This document shows, piece after piece, positions 4,961-13,159 of a DNA stretch of 24,096 nucleotides. Positions within the stretch are counted from its first letter, which is position 1. Every line of letters begins with the position of its first letter. This DNA comes from Clostridia bacterium (lineage in GTDB: Bacteria > UBA6262 > WVXT01 > JAUXBS01). Location: the NCBI GenBank assembly GCA_030618495.1, contig JAUXDE010000011.1, forward strand, positions 1-24,096, in the 5' to 3' direction. The position numbers and the translations under genes were made by a program. The notes beneath the pieces are model-generated. The model ran no database searches, was not told where the DNA came from, and saw nothing but the letters and a program-made list of their open reading frames with translations.

Positions 4961-4989
4961 TTGACAAAATTCACGTTCTGTGATATACT
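4961..4989 (+). promoter_or_regulatory. Extended -10 sigma-70 promoter of the envelope cluster
   Basis: The -35 box TTGACA (4961-4966) is a perfect consensus. A 17-nt spacer leads to TATACT (4984-4989), which is preceded by TG at 4981-4982, the extended -10 signature. Transcription should start near 4996, giving a leader of about 90 nt before the ATG at 5088. This is the best promoter in the window, suggesting strong expression of the PorV-like protein. Confidence 0.8.
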
Positions 4990-5087: not shown

Positions 5088-6152
5088 ATGGACATATTAC
5101 TTAGTGGGAATTTATATCAAAGGAACAGACGGACTTGTATTAGCAGGATTATCACGGTCATCAGGGTTACGCTCATGCTCTGCCTTGGGACCGGCGGCGT
5201 TGTGTATGGAAGTACATCGGAATACGATATCATAGGGGCGGTAGGGTATAACGCAAGGACAATTGCCCTGGGTGGATGTCTTGGAGCCATTACCAGTGAC
5301 GTGGATACTATTTTTCTGAATCCTGCCGGAATAGGGCGTTTCAATTCACAGGAAATAAACCTTAGTTATAACCGGTGGGTAAATGGTATGAGTTATGAGT
5401 CAGTAGGCTACATAGCTCCGATTGGCGGGATGACTCTGGGATTAAACGCGATTTACCAGAACCCGATGGGTGAAAATCCCAGTACAGATAATTTTTCCTC
5501 CCGCAACCTTGCGCTCAGCATGTCAGCCGGGAAAAAACTGGATGAAAGCATAATGCTGGGTGCGAATGTAAAAGCCATTCAGGAGGAAGTCGATGGTCAA
5601 AAGCAAAATTCATTAGTAGTTGACCTGGCAGGGTTGTACAACATAGGTATAATAGGGTTGACTGTTGGGTTTGGAGTGCAGAATATCGGTTCCAGGATAA
5701 AGGAATTAAGTAACGGTGGAGAACTTCCGCTGACTTTCAATCTTGGCGGAACCTACAGCACCCTTGGAGATTCCCTGTTCCTGGGTTTGGACTTGAACAT
5801 CATAGATGAAGGTGTCGTAGTTAATTCCGGCATTGAGTACATGCCCTTCAGTTTTCTGTCGTTAAGGACAGGCTACAGGGCAATGCTGGTTCCGGGTGGT
5901 GGATTTAACAGTTTTAGCAGATTGTCTACTGGATTTGGGCTGAATATTTTCAAGTTTCACGTTGATTATGCCTATGTTTACGACGGCTCCACGCAGGACG
6001 ATCATATTTTTTCAGTAAGGTTTAAGGTTATGATGGAGCCCTTCGGCGTAAAATCACCAAGCCCGGATAGATATGCAAAGAAACTCAAGAAAGGTAAAAA
6101 GCGCAGTTGTATAACCATTGATGGTGTGACCATGTGCTTGTATAATGATTAG
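5088..6152 (+). CDS. PorV/UPF0164-type outer-membrane beta-barrel protein
   Basis: A 354-residue exported protein. The N-terminus has a long basic stretch (RNRR, 13-16) and a hydrophobic segment at about 20-41 ending near VVYGS, consistent with a signal peptide with an extended n-region. The mature start carries ARTIALGGCLGA followed by IFLNPAGIG, the LGG...NPAG signature of the PorV/PorQ and FadL-like barrel superfamily. Alternating-hydrophobicity strands then continue to about residue 320. After the last strand there is an unusual basic tail (KKLKKGKKR) with Cys341 and Cys350. In PorV relatives the barrel serves protein secretion or surface attachment; that role here is inference. The start is fixed by AGGAGG at 5074-5079, 8 nt upstream. 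Confidence 0.8.
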   Translation: MDILLSGNLYQRNRRTCISRIITVIRVTLMLCLGTGGVVYGSTSEYDIIGAVGYNARTIALGGCLGAITSDVDTIFLNPAGIGRFNSQEINLSYNRWVNGMSYESVGYIAPIGGMTLGLNAIYQNPMGENPSTDNFSSRNLALSMSAGKKLDESIMLGANVKAIQEEVDGQKQNSLVVDLAGLYNIGIIGLTVGFGVQNIGSRIKELSNGGELPLTFNLGGTYSTLGDSLFLGLDLNIIDEGVVVNSGIEYMPFSFLSLRTGYRAMLVPGGGFNSFSRLSTGFGLNIFKFHVDYAYVYDGSTQDDHIFSVRFKVMMEPFGVKSPSPDRYAKKLKKGKKRSCITIDGVTMCLYND

Positions 6153-6165
6153 AGGGAGGAATTGA

Positions 6166-6318
6166 GTGGTATACAAAATAAAAAAGATTTTTCTTTGTAC
6201 CTTGATGCTAATGCTGATGATACAGTCCGGCTGTGCATCTGCTTCAAAGAAGAAGGCATCGGAGAATGGTAAGGACGATTGCCCGAAATGCAGGAAAAAA
6301 GCAGATAGAAACCGGTAA
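6166..6318 (+). CDS. Small CxxC lipoprotein (50 aa), GTG start
   Basis: A short gene that begins at GTG 6166 behind a GGGAGGA Shine-Dalgarno (6154-6160). The protein opens with VVYKIKKIFLCTLMLMLMIQ and then SGC, a lipobox-like site (Q-S-G-C, with the usual Leu at -3 replaced by Gln). After the putative lipidated Cys23 come Ser/Ala/Lys-rich residues and a CPKC pair (39-42), a knuckle able to bind zinc or form a disulfide. It lies 13 nt after the PorV-like gene and is followed by a hairpin, so it is probably the last gene of that unit. I do not recognise a family. The gene reality rests on the Shine-Dalgarno, the lipoprotein signal and its position. Confidence 0.65.
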   Translation: MVYKIKKIFLCTLMLMLMIQSGCASASKKKASENGKDDCPKCRKKADRNR

Positions 6319-6374
6319 AAACCGAGACACTATGTTTTCTGACTATTTATGAAAATCAGAACTGTCCCGGTTTT
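6318..6374 (+). terminator. Stem-loop terminator after the small lipoprotein
   Basis: AAAACCGAGACA (6318-6329) pairs with TGTCCCGGTTTT (6363-6374) in a 12-bp stem with one A-C mismatch. A second short stem, TTCTGA/TCAGAA, can form inside it. The 3' arm ends in TTTT followed by CCTGTT, and the 5' arm begins with AAAA, so it could work in both directions. It probably ends the transcript that starts at 4996. Confidence 0.6.
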
Positions 6375-6409
6375 CCTGTTAACCACGCTAATTTAGAGGA
6401 GTAAAGTTT

Positions 6410-7066
6410 ATGAAGGTAACCGTAAAATTAATCTATATTATACTTGTTGTGGTTTTATTCTTGCCGGGGAAGGCATTTTGCCAGGGAAACGAACGGAAGA
6501 TTGTGGATAAAACAGCTTTTAGCCCGTATTATGATACTCTGAACGATAAGAAAGCTCCCGTAAAAGTTGACGATGAAAAACGACTGGTGCCGGAATCCAT
6601 GGAAGAAAAAAAAGCCATCGGTTACGGGGGGGACCCGGGGCTTCATGACGGAATTTCTTTTAAATACTGGTTTAAGAAGGATATGGCTGTCAGCGTTAAT
6701 GCAAAACTACTGTTAGAAACGGAAGGCGGAAACCTTGAACATAATATTAACATAAGGCCCAAGTTGCTTATGAATGTTTCAAAAAGCGATATATTACTGA
6801 TAAACCTTTTTGCGGGTCTTGACATTCTTTTCAGCGATAATATTGACCATACAAGCGAAGGTGACTGGCACGTGCTGTATGCCATTGCCGGGATCTCACC
6901 GGAACTTTTCATAACCGAAAATTTTTCAATAGAGACGTCTTTCGGGGCATATCTTGAACTGCTTGGCGGTAGCAGCGGCGCGGGAGGAAACAATAATACG
7001 GTGTCGTTCGGAACGTTGGGGGATTCGATTAGCCAGGCATCAATAAGTTTTAATATATATTTCTGA
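6410..7066 (+). CDS. Small outer-membrane beta-barrel protein, unknown function
   Basis: A 218-residue exported protein. Residues 1-24 form a clear signal peptide (KLIYIILVVVLFLPGKAF). A charged, Lys/Glu-rich linker follows (about 26-70), then a C-terminal domain of about 140 residues made of amphipathic strands separated by Gly/Asn/Asp turns. It ends in SISFNIYF, with the terminal aromatic residue expected of a BAM-inserted barrel. The size fits a barrel of about eight strands such as the OmpA/OmpX-like fold; this is inferred from pattern, not from a recognised motif. GAGGAG lies at 6396-6401. No promoter is obvious between it and the preceding hairpin. Confidence 0.65.
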   Translation: MKVTVKLIYIILVVVLFLPGKAFCQGNERKIVDKTAFSPYYDTLNDKKAPVKVDDEKRLVPESMEEKKAIGYGGDPGLHDGISFKYWFKKDMAVSVNAKLLLETEGGNLEHNINIRPKLLMNVSKSDILLINLFAGLDILFSDNIDHTSEGDWHVLYAIAGISPELFITENFSIETSFGAYLELLGGSSGAGGNNNTVSFGTLGDSISQASISFNIYF

Positions 7067-7119
7067 CGTAAAAATAACAATTCCCGCAAAAATACCGCAA
7101 AATATTCCATAAATATATC

Positions 7120-7148
7120 TTGACTTCTGGCAGCAATTTTATTAGAAT
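7120..7148 (+). promoter_or_regulatory. Sigma-70 promoter of the TPR pair
   Basis: TTGACT (7120-7125), a 17-nt spacer and TAGAAT (7143-7148). Transcription would start near 7155, about 35 nt before the ATG at 7190. It separates the first envelope unit from the TPR-TPR-barrel unit. Confidence 0.65.
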
Positions 7149-7189
7149 AAAATCAAATAATAACAAAATTAAAAGGAGAAAATATATTA

Positions 7190-8044
7190 ATGAAAAGAGT
7201 TATAATATTATTTCTGACAATCTTTCTTGGCGCCGGATTTTTAAGTTATGTTCATTCAGGCCAGTCAATAAAGGTTGCGGATGAACTGCTTGAAAACGAG
7301 TGTTTTGAAAGGGCCATTGAGGAGTATCTGAAACTGGTTTACCTGAATGTAAGTGATAAATATAACGCAAATGCTGAATATAAGGTCGGTTTATGCCTGC
7401 AGAGGAATAAGAAATATTGGCGCGCGGTCCAGCAGTGGGAGAACGTTATAAAGAAGTACCCCGCGACCGAATGGGCGAAGAAAGCGAAGGACGGCATAAA
7501 GGCGGTTAAAATAATAACGGAGGATGTTAACAGAATATACGATGTAGCCGGCAGGAAGTACGAGGTAAACAGGAATCCCCGGTACCCGCTGAAATTGAGG
7601 GACAAACTTGCTGAAATGTATATAAGGTTCGGAGATGATTTTGCGGACAGGGCGTGGGTGTCCAGCGGTTATAAAATGGAACTTGAGAAATATGAATTTG
7701 AAACAGCGCAGTACTGGTATGAAAAAGTTATATCGGAATACCCGGACTCCTTCATTGCCCCTTATGCGATTGAAAGGCTGGGCTACCTTTATTATAGAAG
7801 CGAACTTCCAGGTAATTATTCAAAAGCCGTCGAACAGTACATGAGGATGCCGGAACTGTTTGGTGACAGGGTTTTATGGGTTCTAAGGGGGTTGAGGCTT
7901 GCCGCGGATACCCACAGGGACAAGTTGAAGAGGAAAGCTTCTATTGAAATCTATGAGAGAATTCGTGACCTTGCTGCCGAAAAAATAGGTGATGATAGTT
8001 TTTATAAAAACTATGCTGAAACACAGATTGAATCTGTGAAATAA
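7190..8044 (+). CDS. Exported TPR-type protein, copy 1 of a tandem pair
   Basis: A 284-residue protein with a signal peptide (1 to about 24, VIILFLTIFLGAGF core) and no lipobox, so a periplasmic location is likely. The rest is helical with TPR-like repeats: ENECFERAIEEYLKLV (35-50), KVGLCLQRNKKYWRAVQQWE (65-84) and ETAQYWYEKVISEYP in the second half. Tyr-Pro repeat ends recall the TPRs of BamD and YbgF. It is a full-length paralog of the next gene: both share ENECF, G-x-CLQR-x-KKYW and the C-terminal SFY...TQ segment, plus a Cys-Cys pair 31 residues apart (C38 and C69 here). AAGGAG at 7173-7178 supports the start. The partner and function are unknown; scaffold or assembly roles are typical of such repeats. 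Confidence 0.75.
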   Translation: MKRVIILFLTIFLGAGFLSYVHSGQSIKVADELLENECFERAIEEYLKLVYLNVSDKYNANAEYKVGLCLQRNKKYWRAVQQWENVIKKYPATEWAKKAKDGIKAVKIITEDVNRIYDVAGRKYEVNRNPRYPLKLRDKLAEMYIRFGDDFADRAWVSSGYKMELEKYEFETAQYWYEKVISEYPDSFIAPYAIERLGYLYYRSELPGNYSKAVEQYMRMPELFGDRVLWVLRGLRLAADTHRDKLKRKASIEIYERIRDLAAEKIGDDSFYKNYAETQIESVK

Positions 8045-8065
8045 AATAAAGTACAGGAGAAAATA

Positions 8066-8923
8066 ATGCTTAAAAGAAAATTAACGGTTTTAGTAATAAC
8101 GGTAGTTCTCCTTGGAGGATTCCTCGGGGTTGCTTCGGGAGAGCAGGGGGGGAATGCCCTGTACAAATACGCTTCCGCGTTATATGAGAATGAGTGTTTC
8201 GTACCGGCTATTGTCCGGTTTAACGAGGTGATAAACACTTACCCGGACAGTAAGCACGTTCAGGAAAGCAAGTATTTAATAGGGGAATGCCTGCAGCGCG
8301 AAAAGAAATACTGGAAAGCCATGAAGCACTGGGAGAAAGTCAGGGACGAGTATCCGGGAACGGATACTGAAAAAAAGTGCGAAGAAGCCATACAAATGGT
8401 GAAAAGAATAACGGAAGTTAACAATTTTACCGACAAGGAAGAGTTTTTACGGTATCCCGTGACGATTAAGGACATGGTGACGCAGACCTGCATTGATAAT
8501 ATAGTTGAGCATGAAAGCATGATGGTTATAAGTGACATGCCTAATAAACCTGAAATTGCAAGGGGGGTGGCATGGTGCGATAAGATACTTTCCGAACTCA
8601 AAGATTCGCCGATAGCCGTGAATGCGTACGATAAAAGAGGATGGATTGATTTCCTGAAAAATTCACCTTCTGACAGCAAGAAGGCTATTGAACATTACCT
8701 CAAGACATTGGATGCGTTCCCTGAAGACTACCAGTGGGTACTGAGAAATATTAAATGGTCTGCCATGATTGCAAGTGACCCCTTATATATTGGCGACTTG
8801 AAGTACGGTGAGGAGTTGTACAGGAAACTGATTGAAGAGTCAAGAAAAAGAATAGGCAAGGTAAGTTTCTATGAATCATTTGCGAAGACGCAGTTAAGAA
8901 TAATGGGAAAAGATGTAGAATAA
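8066..8923 (+). CDS. Exported TPR-type protein, copy 2 of a tandem pair
   Basis: A 285-residue paralog of the preceding gene, starting 21 nt after it behind AGGAGA (8055-8060). The signal peptide is at 1 to about 24 (LTVLVITVVLLGGFLGVASG). TPR-like helices follow: ENECFVPAIVRFNEVINTYP (41-60) and the ECLQREKKYWKAMKHWEKV region (74-92), each ending with a YP-type turn (59-60 and 96-97). Cys44 and Cys75 keep the 31-residue spacing of the first copy; Cys105 is extra. The C-terminal part keeps WVLR (around 224) and the SFY...TQ region. Divergence between the copies is large outside these blocks, which indicates an old duplication with separate roles, perhaps as a heterodimer (inference). Confidence 0.75.
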   Translation: MLKRKLTVLVITVVLLGGFLGVASGEQGGNALYKYASALYENECFVPAIVRFNEVINTYPDSKHVQESKYLIGECLQREKKYWKAMKHWEKVRDEYPGTDTEKKCEEAIQMVKRITEVNNFTDKEEFLRYPVTIKDMVTQTCIDNIVEHESMMVISDMPNKPEIARGVAWCDKILSELKDSPIAVNAYDKRGWIDFLKNSPSDSKKAIEHYLKTLDAFPEDYQWVLRNIKWSAMIASDPLYIGDLKYGEELYRKLIEESRKRIGKVSFYESFAKTQLRIMGKDVE

Positions 8924-8952
8924 ATGGAATTCTAGTTTGAAAGGAGAGAAAA

Positions 8953-9720
8953 ATGAGAAAATGTATGTCTTTGATTCTTGTGGCAGGGTTTCTGGTTGTT
9001 CTTACCGGTACCGCAGCTGCCAGGACAAGAGTTGAAAAATGGATGGATGTATCAGGGAGTTATACAAACAAAGATGTCGAAAGTGGAAATATGGTTGACT
9101 GGATGGTTACGTTAGACGGTAACCTGAACTTCATAATGGGCGTAAGGCAAGAAATAAGAACAAGACTGAAGTTAACAGCCGGTGAAGCAATCAGTTCTGT
9201 CGGTAAGTCTGTCAGGACCGAACAGGAACTCAACTTAAATTTAGATTATACTTACAAGGCCAGTCGTTATACAAGTTTTTCGGTTGTTACCAACCCAGTT
9301 GCTTTTGAGGGAGTTGAACTTTCTACTACAACTTTTGGAGATTCTTTAAAGGTGCGTTCCACGGTTTCAATGAATAAGTACATTTCTAAGCGCTTTGACT
9401 GGACGCTGGGATTAGAGAATTGGATGTATGGGAATACTGTTCTGGAAAAAAACAAGAACAGAATTTATGCAGAAATAATGTACTTCCAGCCGTTTGGCAG
9501 GTACCAGTCAAAGGTTAATCTGACCCAAAAACTCAATTTCACCAAAGATATTGCCGGTAGCGATGATGAAGTAATTTCAACAACCGTAGTTAGTTACGAA
9601 TTATATAAGAGATTAACTTTAGATTTTAATGGAGCATTTGCTTTACAAAGAAAAAATGGATGGAGTGTGAATAAGCTCTGGAAGAATATTTTTACCGGAC
9701 TAACCTGGCATTGGTATTAA
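8953..9720 (+). CDS. Outer-membrane beta-barrel protein, unknown family
   Basis: A 255-residue exported protein with a clean signal peptide (1 to about 23, ending TAAA-R). The mature part is almost entirely amphipathic strands of 8-12 residues with charged or Asn/Asp turns, such as ELNLNLDYTYKASRYTSFSV and the closing TGLTWHWY with a terminal tyrosine. These features indicate a beta-barrel of about 12 strands; the general look recalls DUF481/DUF3078-type barrels, but I cannot assign a family. It lies 29 nt after the second TPR gene with AAGGAG at 8941-8946, so it is likely co-transcribed and may be the membrane partner of the TPR pair. An inverted repeat follows. Confidence 0.7.
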   Translation: MRKCMSLILVAGFLVVLTGTAAARTRVEKWMDVSGSYTNKDVESGNMVDWMVTLDGNLNFIMGVRQEIRTRLKLTAGEAISSVGKSVRTEQELNLNLDYTYKASRYTSFSVVTNPVAFEGVELSTTTFGDSLKVRSTVSMNKYISKRFDWTLGLENWMYGNTVLEKNKNRIYAEIMYFQPFGRYQSKVNLTQKLNFTKDIAGSDDEVISTTVVSYELYKRLTLDFNGAFALQRKNGWSVNKLWKNIFTGLTWHWY

Positions 9721-9754: not shown

Positions 9755-9793
9755 ATAACGCTGGACTGTTTTTATTGAATGGTCCAGCGTTAT
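9755..9793 (+). terminator. Perfect 12-bp stem-loop between the barrel and glycosyltransferase genes
   Basis: ATAACGCTGGAC (9755-9766) and GTCCAGCGTTAT (9782-9793) form a perfect 12-bp stem with a 15-nt loop that contains a T5 run. The tract after the 3' arm (ATTTATAG) is only weakly T-rich; a T7 run follows at 9805-9811. It probably ends the envelope transcript, possibly as an imperfect intrinsic terminator. A protein-binding palindrome is the alternative. Confidence 0.5.
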
Positions 9794-9829
9794 ATTTATA
9801 GAACATTTTTTGTTAGGAAACAGGCGAAG

Positions 9830-10951
9830 ATGAAAACGGCAATTATTCATGACTGGCTGGTATCAACGGGAGGAGCGGAAAGATGCCTGGAAGTGTTCTG
9901 CGAGTTGTTCCCGGAAGCCACTATTTTTACACTCGTCCATGATCCCGGCAAAATAGATTCGGATATAATAAACAGGATGGATATAAGAACGTCTTTCATC
10001 CAGCGGCTTCCCCTGGGTAAAAAGAAATACCGTCATTATTTACCACTGATGCCCCGCGCAATCGGGGCTTTTAACCTTTCGGGTTACGACCTTGCGCTGA
10101 GCTCAAGCCATTGCGTTGCAAAGGGCGTAAGGACGCCAAAGGCAACCTGCCATATCAGTTACTGCTATACCCCGATGCGTTATATATGGAACATGTATGA
10201 TGAGTATTTCAGAAGCAATAGAACAGGGCTTGCCGCCAGGTTATTAATGCCCTTATTCCTGGACCGTTTAAGAAAATGGGATGTGAATACTTCAAAAGGA
10301 GTGGATTATTTCATAGCCATATCGGATAACGTAAGACAAAGGATAAAGATGTATTATGACAGGGAGTCCGATGTCATATATCCCCCCGTGAATACCGGGT
10401 ATTTCAGGAATACGGGGAGAAGGAGGGAGGATTTCTTTCTTGCAGTATCAAGATTCGTGCCATACAAACAGCTTGACCTTGCGGTAAGGGCGTTTAACGC
10501 GTTGAAACTGCCGCTTGTCATAATAGGCGGCGGCCCGGAGCTTAATAAGTTGAAGAAAATGGCAAAAGATAATATCAAAATTCTGATAAACCAACCGGAT
10601 TCTTCCCTGAGGGACTATTATTCGCGCTGTAAAGCGCTTGTTTTCCCCGCAAATGAGGATTTTGGTATTATTCCCATTGAAGCGCAGTCATGCGGTTGTC
10701 CCGTAATTGCTTATAAAAAAGGCGGCGCGCTTGAAACCGTGGTTGAAGGCGTAACGGGCAAATTCTTCCATTCACAAACCGTTGAAGCCCTGGTGAAAAC
10801 CGTAGAGGAATTCAGGCCTGAGGAATTCAGTCCTGATGTGATAAGAAATCATGCGATAAAATTTGACAGGAATGCATTTAAGGTAAATATAAAAAAATAC
10901 ATATTTGAAAAATATGAAGATTACAAAAGAACATGTAAAGAATTAAATTAA
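9830..10951 (+). CDS. GT4-family glycosyltransferase
   Basis: A 373-residue GT-B retaining glycosyltransferase, using a nucleotide sugar to extend a glycan at the inner face of the cytoplasmic membrane. The N-terminus has the HDWLVSTGGAERCLEVF segment (8-24). The C-terminal domain has GGGPELNKL (233-241) and the EX7E motif as EDFGIIPIE (Glu276 and Glu284), followed by CGCPVIA and GGALETV, all typical of GT4. The start at 9830 is chosen because the frame upstream to 9779 runs through the stem-loop and encodes an atypical basic peptide. A modest Shine-Dalgarno lies in AGGCGAAG. The donor and acceptor cannot be read from sequence. Nearby UbiA and GlmU-like genes suggest a cell-envelope polysaccharide. 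Confidence 0.87.
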   Translation: MKTAIIHDWLVSTGGAERCLEVFCELFPEATIFTLVHDPGKIDSDIINRMDIRTSFIQRLPLGKKKYRHYLPLMPRAIGAFNLSGYDLALSSSHCVAKGVRTPKATCHISYCYTPMRYIWNMYDEYFRSNRTGLAARLLMPLFLDRLRKWDVNTSKGVDYFIAISDNVRQRIKMYYDRESDVIYPPVNTGYFRNTGRRREDFFLAVSRFVPYKQLDLAVRAFNALKLPLVIIGGGPELNKLKKMAKDNIKILINQPDSSLRDYYSRCKALVFPANEDFGIIPIEAQSCGCPVIAYKKGGALETVVEGVTGKFFHSQTVEALVKTVEEFRPEEFSPDVIRNHAIKFDRNAFKVNIKKYIFEKYEDYKRTCKELN

Positions 10952-10987: not shown

Positions 10988-11026
10988 TTTATAAATAAAA
11001 AGAGTTTTCAATAAAAGGTGGAAATT

Positions 11027-11896
11027 ATGGTGAAGTTATTATTTACGGCAATGAGGCCCCATCAATGGATTAAAAACCTGTTTGTGTTTGCCGCGCTCAT
11101 ATTTGCGAAAAAAATGATATATCCGGGAAAGGTAATTATTGTAACAATCGGTTTTATAATGTTTTGTTTTGTTTCAAGCAGTATCTACATGATAAATGAT
11201 ATTCTTGATTTTAATGAGGACAAAAAACACCCCGTAAAGCGCAACAGGCCTATTGCCTCCGGAAAACTGAGTAAGTCCGCCGCAATCGTAGCAGCAGTAT
11301 TCCTGGCGCTGGTTAGTTTTTCGGGCGCTTTTTATCTGAATTATTATTTTGGCATTATCCTGTCTCTGTATTTCCTGATGAATATTGCTTATTCCTTATC
11401 CCTGAAACATAAAGTTGTGATAGATGTTATAGTGATAGCCCTGGGGTTTGTCCTGCGTGTTCTTGGAGGAGCAGCGGTTATTGAAGTGAGTACGTCAACA
11501 TGGTTGATACTATGCACGTTGTTTGCTTCACTGTTCTTCGGGTTCTGCAAGCGCAGGCACGAACTGGTATTTATGGAAAGTTCAGCCACCGGTCACAGGA
11601 AAGTCCTGGAGGAATACAGTCCTGCTTTTCTGGACCAGATGATATCCGTGGTATCGGCGCTTACCATAATGTCCTATGCTCTTTACACTGTGTCTTCGGA
11701 AACCATCGCCAAATTCGGGACAGGTAACCTTATTTACACCGTTCCGTTCGTTATTTACGGGATTTTCAGGTACTTTTATCTTGTTTATAAGAAAGAACTG
11801 GGGGGAAATCCCACCAGGATAATACTGAAGGATAAATCAATAATTACGGTTGTATTCTTCTGGATGGTAACATGTTGTTATATCATATATTTATAG
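11027..11896 (+). CDS. UbiA-family prenyltransferase, DPPR synthase-like
   Basis: A 289-residue polytopic membrane protein with about eight to nine hydrophobic segments. It resembles decaprenyl-phosphate phosphoribosyltransferase, the UbiA branch that transfers phosphoribose from PRPP to a polyprenyl phosphate. The start MRPHQWIKNLFVF is typical of that branch. The metal/diphosphate-binding motif is N57-D-x-x-D61-x-x-x-D65, followed by KRNRPIASG (71-79). A second Asp region is reduced to YSLSLKHKVVIDV (122-134, Asp133), again as in the DPPR-synthase group. The ATG at 11027 fits AGGTGG upstream; an in-frame GTG at 11018 lies inside that site. Together with the glycosyltransferase and GlmU-like genes it suggests a polyprenyl-linked sugar donor. 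The exact substrate is inferred. Confidence 0.8.
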   Translation: MVKLLFTAMRPHQWIKNLFVFAALIFAKKMIYPGKVIIVTIGFIMFCFVSSSIYMINDILDFNEDKKHPVKRNRPIASGKLSKSAAIVAAVFLALVSFSGAFYLNYYFGIILSLYFLMNIAYSLSLKHKVVIDVIVIALGFVLRVLGGAAVIEVSTSTWLILCTLFASLFFGFCKRRHELVFMESSATGHRKVLEEYSPAFLDQMISVVSALTIMSYALYTVSSETIAKFGTGNLIYTVPFVIYGIFRYFYLVYKKELGGNPTRIILKDKSIITVVFFWMVTCCYIIYL

Positions 11897-11917: not shown

Positions 11918-13159
11918 ATGAAAAGAAATATCTGTATTTTTGAGGACAGAAAAAACGTCAGGCTTACACCGCTGGCTCATACGAGGGCGGTTTATGAAAT
12001 AAGATGCGGTATGGAAAGCCTGATGAGTAAAATAATCCGGGAGTACCCGAATATAAGCGTTAATTTATTCTGCAGGGAGTATCTTAAGGACGTAGTGAAA
12101 GAAAGGTATAGTTACAAGGTTAACGATATCAGTAAAGACGGATGTCTTTTTATTAACGGAAGAGTAGTAATGAATGACCCTATTCCGGTATCCGGTGATG
12201 AAGAAATGGGAATAATGGATAATACGCTGGTTTATGCAAGGTTGAACAAAGATAACGCGGTCTTATTAAAGCCGTCTTCGTTCCTCACGGATAATGTGAT
12301 AAAGAACTTGAAAACCAGGGTAAAGGTTAAAAAGGTTAACGTTGCGATAATCGATTACTTGTGGGATATTGTCCATATGAATCCGGAACAGATAGAAAAA
12401 GATTTTAAAAAGCGCGGCGGAGGGGGAGTTTTAAAAAGTAAAATATACGCTGGGGCTCATATAATTAACAAGAAACTTGTATACGTAGGCAAAAATACAA
12501 AAATTATGCCGGGGGTTATCCTAAATGCGGAGGAAGGCCCTGTTTACATAGATGACGGTGTTACCGTAATGCCGAACGCGGTTATAGAGGGGCCGGTGTA
12601 TATAGGGAGAAAATCACTTGTAAAGGCGTGTTCTAAAATATACAAGGGGACGAGTATCGGCGAAGTATGCAAAGTAGGCGGTGAAGTGGAGGGGTCGATA
12701 ATTCACGGATACAGCAACAAACAGCATGAGGGGTTTTTAGGGCATTCATACATCGGCATGTGGGCAAATCTCGCTGCGGCAACCGATAACAGTGATTTGA
12801 AAAACAACTACAGCAATGTCAGGGTTTATACCGAAGGAAAATATATTGACAGCGGATCGATGTTCGTGGGCATGTTTATCGGGGATTACACGAAGACCAG
12901 TATTGGTACGAAGATGTATTCAGGTTCAATCGCCGGAATAATGTGTAACATACTGGGTGCGGGCATACCCGAGAAGTACATCCCTTCATTTGTGTGGGAA
13001 GAATCGGAGAAAATGGCCACCTATGATTTAAAGAAAGCCAGGGAAACTACGAAGAGAGTCATGGGCCGCAGGAATAAGAAACTATCACGCGCAGAGGAAA
13101 AAATGATTGAGGATGTATTCAGATTTACGAAGAATGAAAGAATACTGACAACAAAATAA
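11918..13159 (+). CDS. GlmU-like sugar nucleotidyltransferase / acyltransferase
   Basis: A 413-residue protein resembling the alternative GlmU type known from Bacteroidetes, a UDP-GlcNAc pyrophosphorylase joined to a hexapeptide acetyltransferase. The N-terminal domain opens CIFEDRKNVRLTPLAHTRAVYEIRCG, matching the family's R-x-x-L-x-P-L-x-x-T-R-P-x-x-x-x-R-x-G pattern but with Ala instead of Pro after Thr-Arg. From about 180 the left-handed beta-helix repeats begin (VYIDDGVTVMPNAVIEGPVYIG). The HGYSNKQHEGFLGHSYIG and NLAAATDNSDLKNNY segments are the acetyl-CoA/active-site region of this family. The Shine-Dalgarno AGGAG is at 11908-11912. It may make UDP-GlcNAc or another activated sugar; the substrate is uncertain. 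Confidence 0.78.
   Translation: MKRNICIFEDRKNVRLTPLAHTRAVYEIRCGMESLMSKIIREYPNISVNLFCREYLKDVVKERYSYKVNDISKDGCLFINGRVVMNDPIPVSGDEEMGIMDNTLVYARLNKDNAVLLKPSSFLTDNVIKNLKTRVKVKKVNVAIIDYLWDIVHMNPEQIEKDFKKRGGGGVLKSKIYAGAHIINKKLVYVGKNTKIMPGVILNAEEGPVYIDDGVTVMPNAVIEGPVYIGRKSLVKACSKIYKGTSIGEVCKVGGEVEGSIIHGYSNKQHEGFLGHSYIGMWANLAAATDNSDLKNNYSNVRVYTEGKYIDSGSMFVGMFIGDYTKTSIGTKMYSGSIAGIMCNILGAGIPEKYIPSFVWEESEKMATYDLKKARETTKRVMGRRNKKLSRAEEKMIEDVFRFTKNERILTTK

Follow-up and report, generated by a model that had tools for sequence, protein, structure and literature searches.

Probably separate envelope units between purine-synthesis and glycan genes: a PorV-family barrel, a lone small barrel and a genus-specific TPR–barrel operon

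The window, a stretch of 24,096 nt that represents contig C29 of a 1.69-Mb genome (G000; 98% complete), carries six consecutive open reading frames on one strand between genes of purine synthesis and genes of glycan formation. Each of them is preceded by a purine-rich ribosome-binding site and encodes a hydrophobic segment at the N-terminus, which, together with the coordinates, bears out the original prediction of six neighbouring, same-strand exported genes. An enzyme had not been expected among them, and indeed no credible enzyme family was found in the six ORFs using Pfam and NCBIfam. Our comparison within the genus used one genome, that of a second species (G001; relevant contig JAUXBS010000112), and six genomes were compared for the order, to which all relatives closer than domain level among the searched genomes belong. 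The label of the sister contig, “Clostridia bacterium”, is at odds with outer-membrane protein genes of this kind. The features of the locus and of the genes that follow it are:

4961..4989, + strand: promoter-like site TTGACA-17-TATACT upstream of the PorV-like gene; a consensus match only (11/12), with TG before the second hexamer
5088..6152, + strand: PorV/PorQ-family outer-membrane barrel, 354 aa, whose short C-terminal tail contains two Cys
6166..6318, + strand: possible CxxC lipoprotein, 50 aa; GTG start, Shine-Dalgarno sequence GAGGGAGG, imperfect lipobox IQSGC
6318..6374, + strand: hairpin between the lipoprotein and the small barrel; z -2.7, the weaker one
6410..7066, + strand: small predicted outer-membrane barrel without a family, 218 aa
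7120..7148, + strand: promoter-like site TTGACT-17-TAGAAT upstream of TPR1; a consensus match only (10/12)
7190..8044, + strand: TPR1, secreted TPR solenoid protein and paralog of TPR2, 284 aa
8066..8923, + strand: TPR2, secreted TPR protein, 285 aa
8953..9720, + strand: predicted outer-membrane barrel of a genus-restricted orphan family, 255 aa
9755..9793, + strand: 17-bp hairpin between the 8953–9720 barrel and the GT4 gene; z -7.8, the strongest of the window
9830..10951, + strand: GT4 glycosyltransferase, adjoining the TPR–barrel trio in both species; start moved from 9779 to 9830 after comparison with G001
11018..11896, + strand: decaprenyl-phosphate phosphoribosyltransferase (UbiA family); NF008977, 310 bits, cut-off 234
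11918..13159, + strand: GlmU-like nucleotidyltransferase/acetyltransferase; TIGR03991, 387 bits, cut-off 225

Cysteines were found in four of the six proteins, as had been predicted. In the mature sequences, these are C64, C341 and C350 of the PorV-family barrel, C38 and C69 of TPR1, and C44, C75 and three more in TPR2, while the lipoprotein has C39 and C42 in addition to a putative lipid Cys 23. In the 6410–7066 and 8953–9720 barrels, the sole Cys lies within the signal peptide or at its cleavage site. The recurrent cysteines had been taken as a hint of disulfide linkage. The pair in ENECF and CLQ is conserved in all three TPR sequences covering this part; the confidence of the TPR1 AlphaFold model around this pair is too low to judge a disulfide. 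The ORF at 6166–6318 has a good ribosome-binding site, and we are uncertain whether it is a genuine 50-aa lipoprotein gene. A lipoprotein signal had been proposed here, but the lipobox, with Gln at -3, is imperfect. For the small barrel no family was identified in Pfam or NCBIfam, and no counterpart was found in G001, whose assembly has a gap across the middle of the block. A single clear but remote match (28% over 111 aa, E 1.4e-6) is to a 178-aa exported protein in a genome of another lineage (G141). The small barrel appears to stand alone.

Both hairpins of the original prediction exist. The one at 9755–9793 is the only uninterrupted stem of at least 12 pairs in the window (loop of 3–15, G–T pairs allowed) and has a counterpart in G001 that likewise separates the barrel and GT4 genes (L032:2748-2885, - strand); there, the 5′ arm (AACGCUGGACU) is identical, the pairing of the 3′ arm is preserved and the loop has changed. 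This hairpin may be a terminator, a processing site or a regulatory structure. A classic T-run directly 3′ of the stem is absent at both hairpins. The two proposed promoters could be retained as matches to the consensus, but promoter-like sites are no more common in the region than in shuffled sequences (27 found versus 23.0 ± 5.9). Taken together, the hairpins and the promoter-like sites at 4961 and 7120 suggest three transcription units, into which the stretch is likely split.

The TPR pair and the barrel downstream of it (7190–9720) had been proposed to form a unit, and this view is supported by a three-gene order that is conserved in both species of the genus compared. TPR1, TPR2, the barrel and GT4 follow each other in the same order in G001, and the gaps of 21–29 nt between TPR1, TPR2 and the barrel are kept as well. 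Identity to the G001 orthologs is 59% for TPR1, 46% for TPR2, 36% for the barrel and 69% for GT4, and reaches 79–85% for purH, purB and purA. The two TPR proteins are 34% identical to each other; TPR2 passes the cut-off of PF13174 (33.2 bits, cut-off 26.3) and TPR1 falls just under it (24.9). In the AlphaFold model of TPR1, residues from about 140 on mostly have a pLDDT of 70–97, and a comparison with known structures yielded VIA Z values of 13–16 to TPR proteins including YbgF and BamD. The barrel has around 11–12 amphipathic strands and its C-terminal GLTWHWY resembles a BAM beta-signal; an AlphaFold model built from two sequences was discarded (pLDDT 31), and no PDB sequence matched even at E 10. 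Scans of genome contigs, one using TPR2 and one the barrel alignment, matched the sister contig alone. A scan of viral contigs gave none, PHROGs gave nothing useful, and the barrel profile detected nothing convincing among 288 other genomes outside the genus (the best was a partial match, E 6e-4). TPR matches in other genomes were rejected as generic TPR segments rather than orthologs. Most likely, the TPR proteins act as periplasmic scaffolds that hold or recruit the 8953–9720 barrel.

In both genomes that were read from the order's sister family, an ABC transporter gene comes after purA. PorV-family and sorting-domain genes lie near purA in one of these genomes and sorting-domain genes in the other, and neither contains a comparable TPR pair or barrel there. 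The sister family also shows arrays of histidine kinase/response regulator pairs beside PorV and sorting-domain genes (L057, L058 and L059).

The barrel encoded at 5088 follows purA here and in G001 (the G001 copy is 68% identical over 108 aa) and belongs to the NCBIfam PorV/PorQ family NF033709 (112.7 bits, cut-off 90; residues 53–313 on model positions 10–325), with a weak sequence match to the solved PorV chain 6h3i_F (E 1.5e-4). It scores below the cut-offs for PorV proper (NF033710, 33.3 versus 250 bits) and PorQ proper (80 versus 220 bits). The family call, combined with a homolog of the SprA/Sov translocon in the same genome, agrees with the earlier proposal of a PorV-type barrel working with a secretion machine. 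This homolog (1759 aa; contig C106, L094:1202-6481; E 8e-51) scores 172.6 against a curated cut-off of 200, and 28.5 against a cut-off of 27 for PF14349. The 5088 barrel resembles the PorV/PorQ family in its score and in its genomic company; it differs in being one of many paralogs, in having no cargo gene and in its short tail with two Cys. Since no sorting-domain cargo gene lies beside it, the 5088 copy is probably an orphan shuttle.

Our search of the genome revealed at least 14 PorV-family matches including the 5088 copy. The neighbourhood was read for 11 copies, and six of these immediately follow a gene with a C-terminus that exceeds the cut-off for a type IX sorting domain: two at L060 (contig C95) and one each at L085 (C20), L096 (C168) and L098 (C151), all with type A domains, and one with type B at L100 (C40). 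For a seventh copy the sorting-domain score of the upstream gene is just below the cut-off (22.1 versus 23). This arrangement suggests one-to-one pairs of cargo and shuttle. Several gene pairs of this group (L060, L085, L096, L098, L100) have overlapping stop and start codons, and two PorV barrels of the genome are fused to C-terminal TPR domains (L060:3202-5133 and L097:4595-6550). Several genes of the genome exceed the cut-off of 23 for the sorting domain TIGR04183, and each of the six genomes compared for the order has PF18962 matches. For GldM and the C25 peptidase (PorU-type sortase) there was no match in this genome, and no control genome matched either. Across 60 genomes, SprA is present in 21 of the 25 with PorV versus two of the 35 without (p 3e-10; p 2e-8 when the order is counted once), which ties the PorV family in these bacteria to an SprA-type translocon.

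Pairing of shuttle and cargo genes has been described in Flavobacterium for PorP/SprF with type B cargo, whereas all type A cargo reportedly depends on a single PorV; orphan shuttles for type B cargo are known from F. johnsoniae, too (PMC12618676). The other PorV loci of our genome resemble the PorP/SprF pairs in that the shuttle gene lies directly 3′ of the cargo gene; they differ in having a PorV-family shuttle and mostly type A sorting domains, and the 5088 copy is unpaired. A survey by Abby et al. detected the T9SS only in Bacteroidetes (PMC4793230), and a study from 2024 stated that it may extend over the FCB phyla but does not occur in others (PMC11285876). We make no claim that the SprA–PorV set represents a T9SS outside the FCB group.

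In our preferred reading, which we regard as probable, three separate envelope transcription units rather than one cassette lie side by side between the purine-synthesis operon and the glycan operon. The first would comprise the PorV-family shuttle barrel, possibly together with the tiny lipoprotein; lacking a cargo gene of its own, this PorV copy would be an orphan shuttle that collects surface proteins with a C-terminal sorting domain on their exit from the SprA-type translocon. The second would be the lone small outer-membrane barrel. The third would be an operon restricted to the genus that combines a duplicated pair of secreted TPR proteins with an outer-membrane barrel of about 12 strands; the TPR proteins in the periplasm may hold the barrel or recruit it to a partner.

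The original prediction had instead joined all six genes into one surface export or assembly complex, in which the TPR pair links PorV and the lipoprotein with the second barrel. All six genes indeed encode exported proteins, are contiguous and lie on the same strand, and the PorV paralogs with C-terminal TPR domains show PorV and TPR combined in one protein. As to the expected six-gene order across genomes, G001 has both ends of the block on two contigs, each of which breaks inside the block, one within PorV and the other within TPR1, and conservation of the whole order thus remains compatible with this assembly; the sister family, however, keeps none of the order. Moreover, the PorV paralogs are dispersed across the genome, mostly next to cargo genes, the small barrel was not found in G001, and the block is split by the hairpins and promoter-like sites. 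The single cassette is therefore not supported, and we consider a six-part complex improbable. Similarly improbable is a scenario in which PorV shuttles, in many copies of which some are TPR-fused and most are cargo-paired, diversified around an SprA translocon without a recognisable motor of the Bacteroidota type, and the 5088 PorV is an unpaired general shuttle assisted by the adjoining TPR pair and barrel.

Two further alternatives concern the trio. Several polysaccharide exporters combine a TPR protein with a barrel, and the trio, which has this layout, could export or assemble the glycan made by the GT4, decaprenyl-phosphoribose synthase and GlmU-like genes that follow it, in the manner of AlgK/AlgE or PelB. 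With GT4, the decaprenyl-phosphate phosphoribosyltransferase and the GlmU-like gene downstream of the trio, a glycan role stays a rival, and the GT4 and UbiA-family genes beside it are kept in G001. There, an extra membrane protein that weakly matches a family for glycopolymer formation lies between the GT4 and UbiA genes (L032:467-1651, - strand); it is absent from the window. The likeness to such exporters is that of a TPR protein beside an outer-membrane barrel near glycan genes. However, at around 231 aa the mature barrel is small for a 16-strand export porin and gave no family match, no sequence similarity to these exporters was found, and the TPR proteins lack a lipidation Cys. Furthermore, the conserved hairpin sets the trio apart from the glycan genes as a separate unit, and the barrel evolves much faster than GT4. 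We regard this explanation as unlikely. Still less likely, and in our view very improbable, is that the pair represents a lineage-specific variant of BamD or CpoB serving general outer-membrane assembly or Tol–Pal constriction. CpoB, YbgF and BamD are the closest sequence relatives of the TPR proteins, which share with them the TPR fold, seen in the TPR1 model, and periplasmic export. In contrast, TPR1 and TPR2 score far below the cut-offs for YbgF/CpoB (TIGR02795, 43.0 and 42.4 versus 90.1; NF008068, 26.9 and 21.1 versus 383) and BamD (TIGR03302, 30.5 and 26.7 versus 81.4), and they differ further in their tandem duplication, a partner barrel without a known family, and a signal cleavage region that is devoid of Cys, and the absence of a lipid anchor. 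BamD and CpoB are widely conserved, whereas orthologs of the TPR pair were seen only in this genus.

Overall, under the reading of three units side by side, the six-gene block is mostly ordinary envelope content, composed of one known family and a genus-specific orphan operon. Beyond the block, our analysis revealed a set of SprA, PorV and sorting-domain proteins in a little-sampled lineage, in which PorV genes are often paired one to one with cargo. If confirmed, this would represent a different organisation of type IX-like secretion, and the question of a translocon without a motor would become testable.
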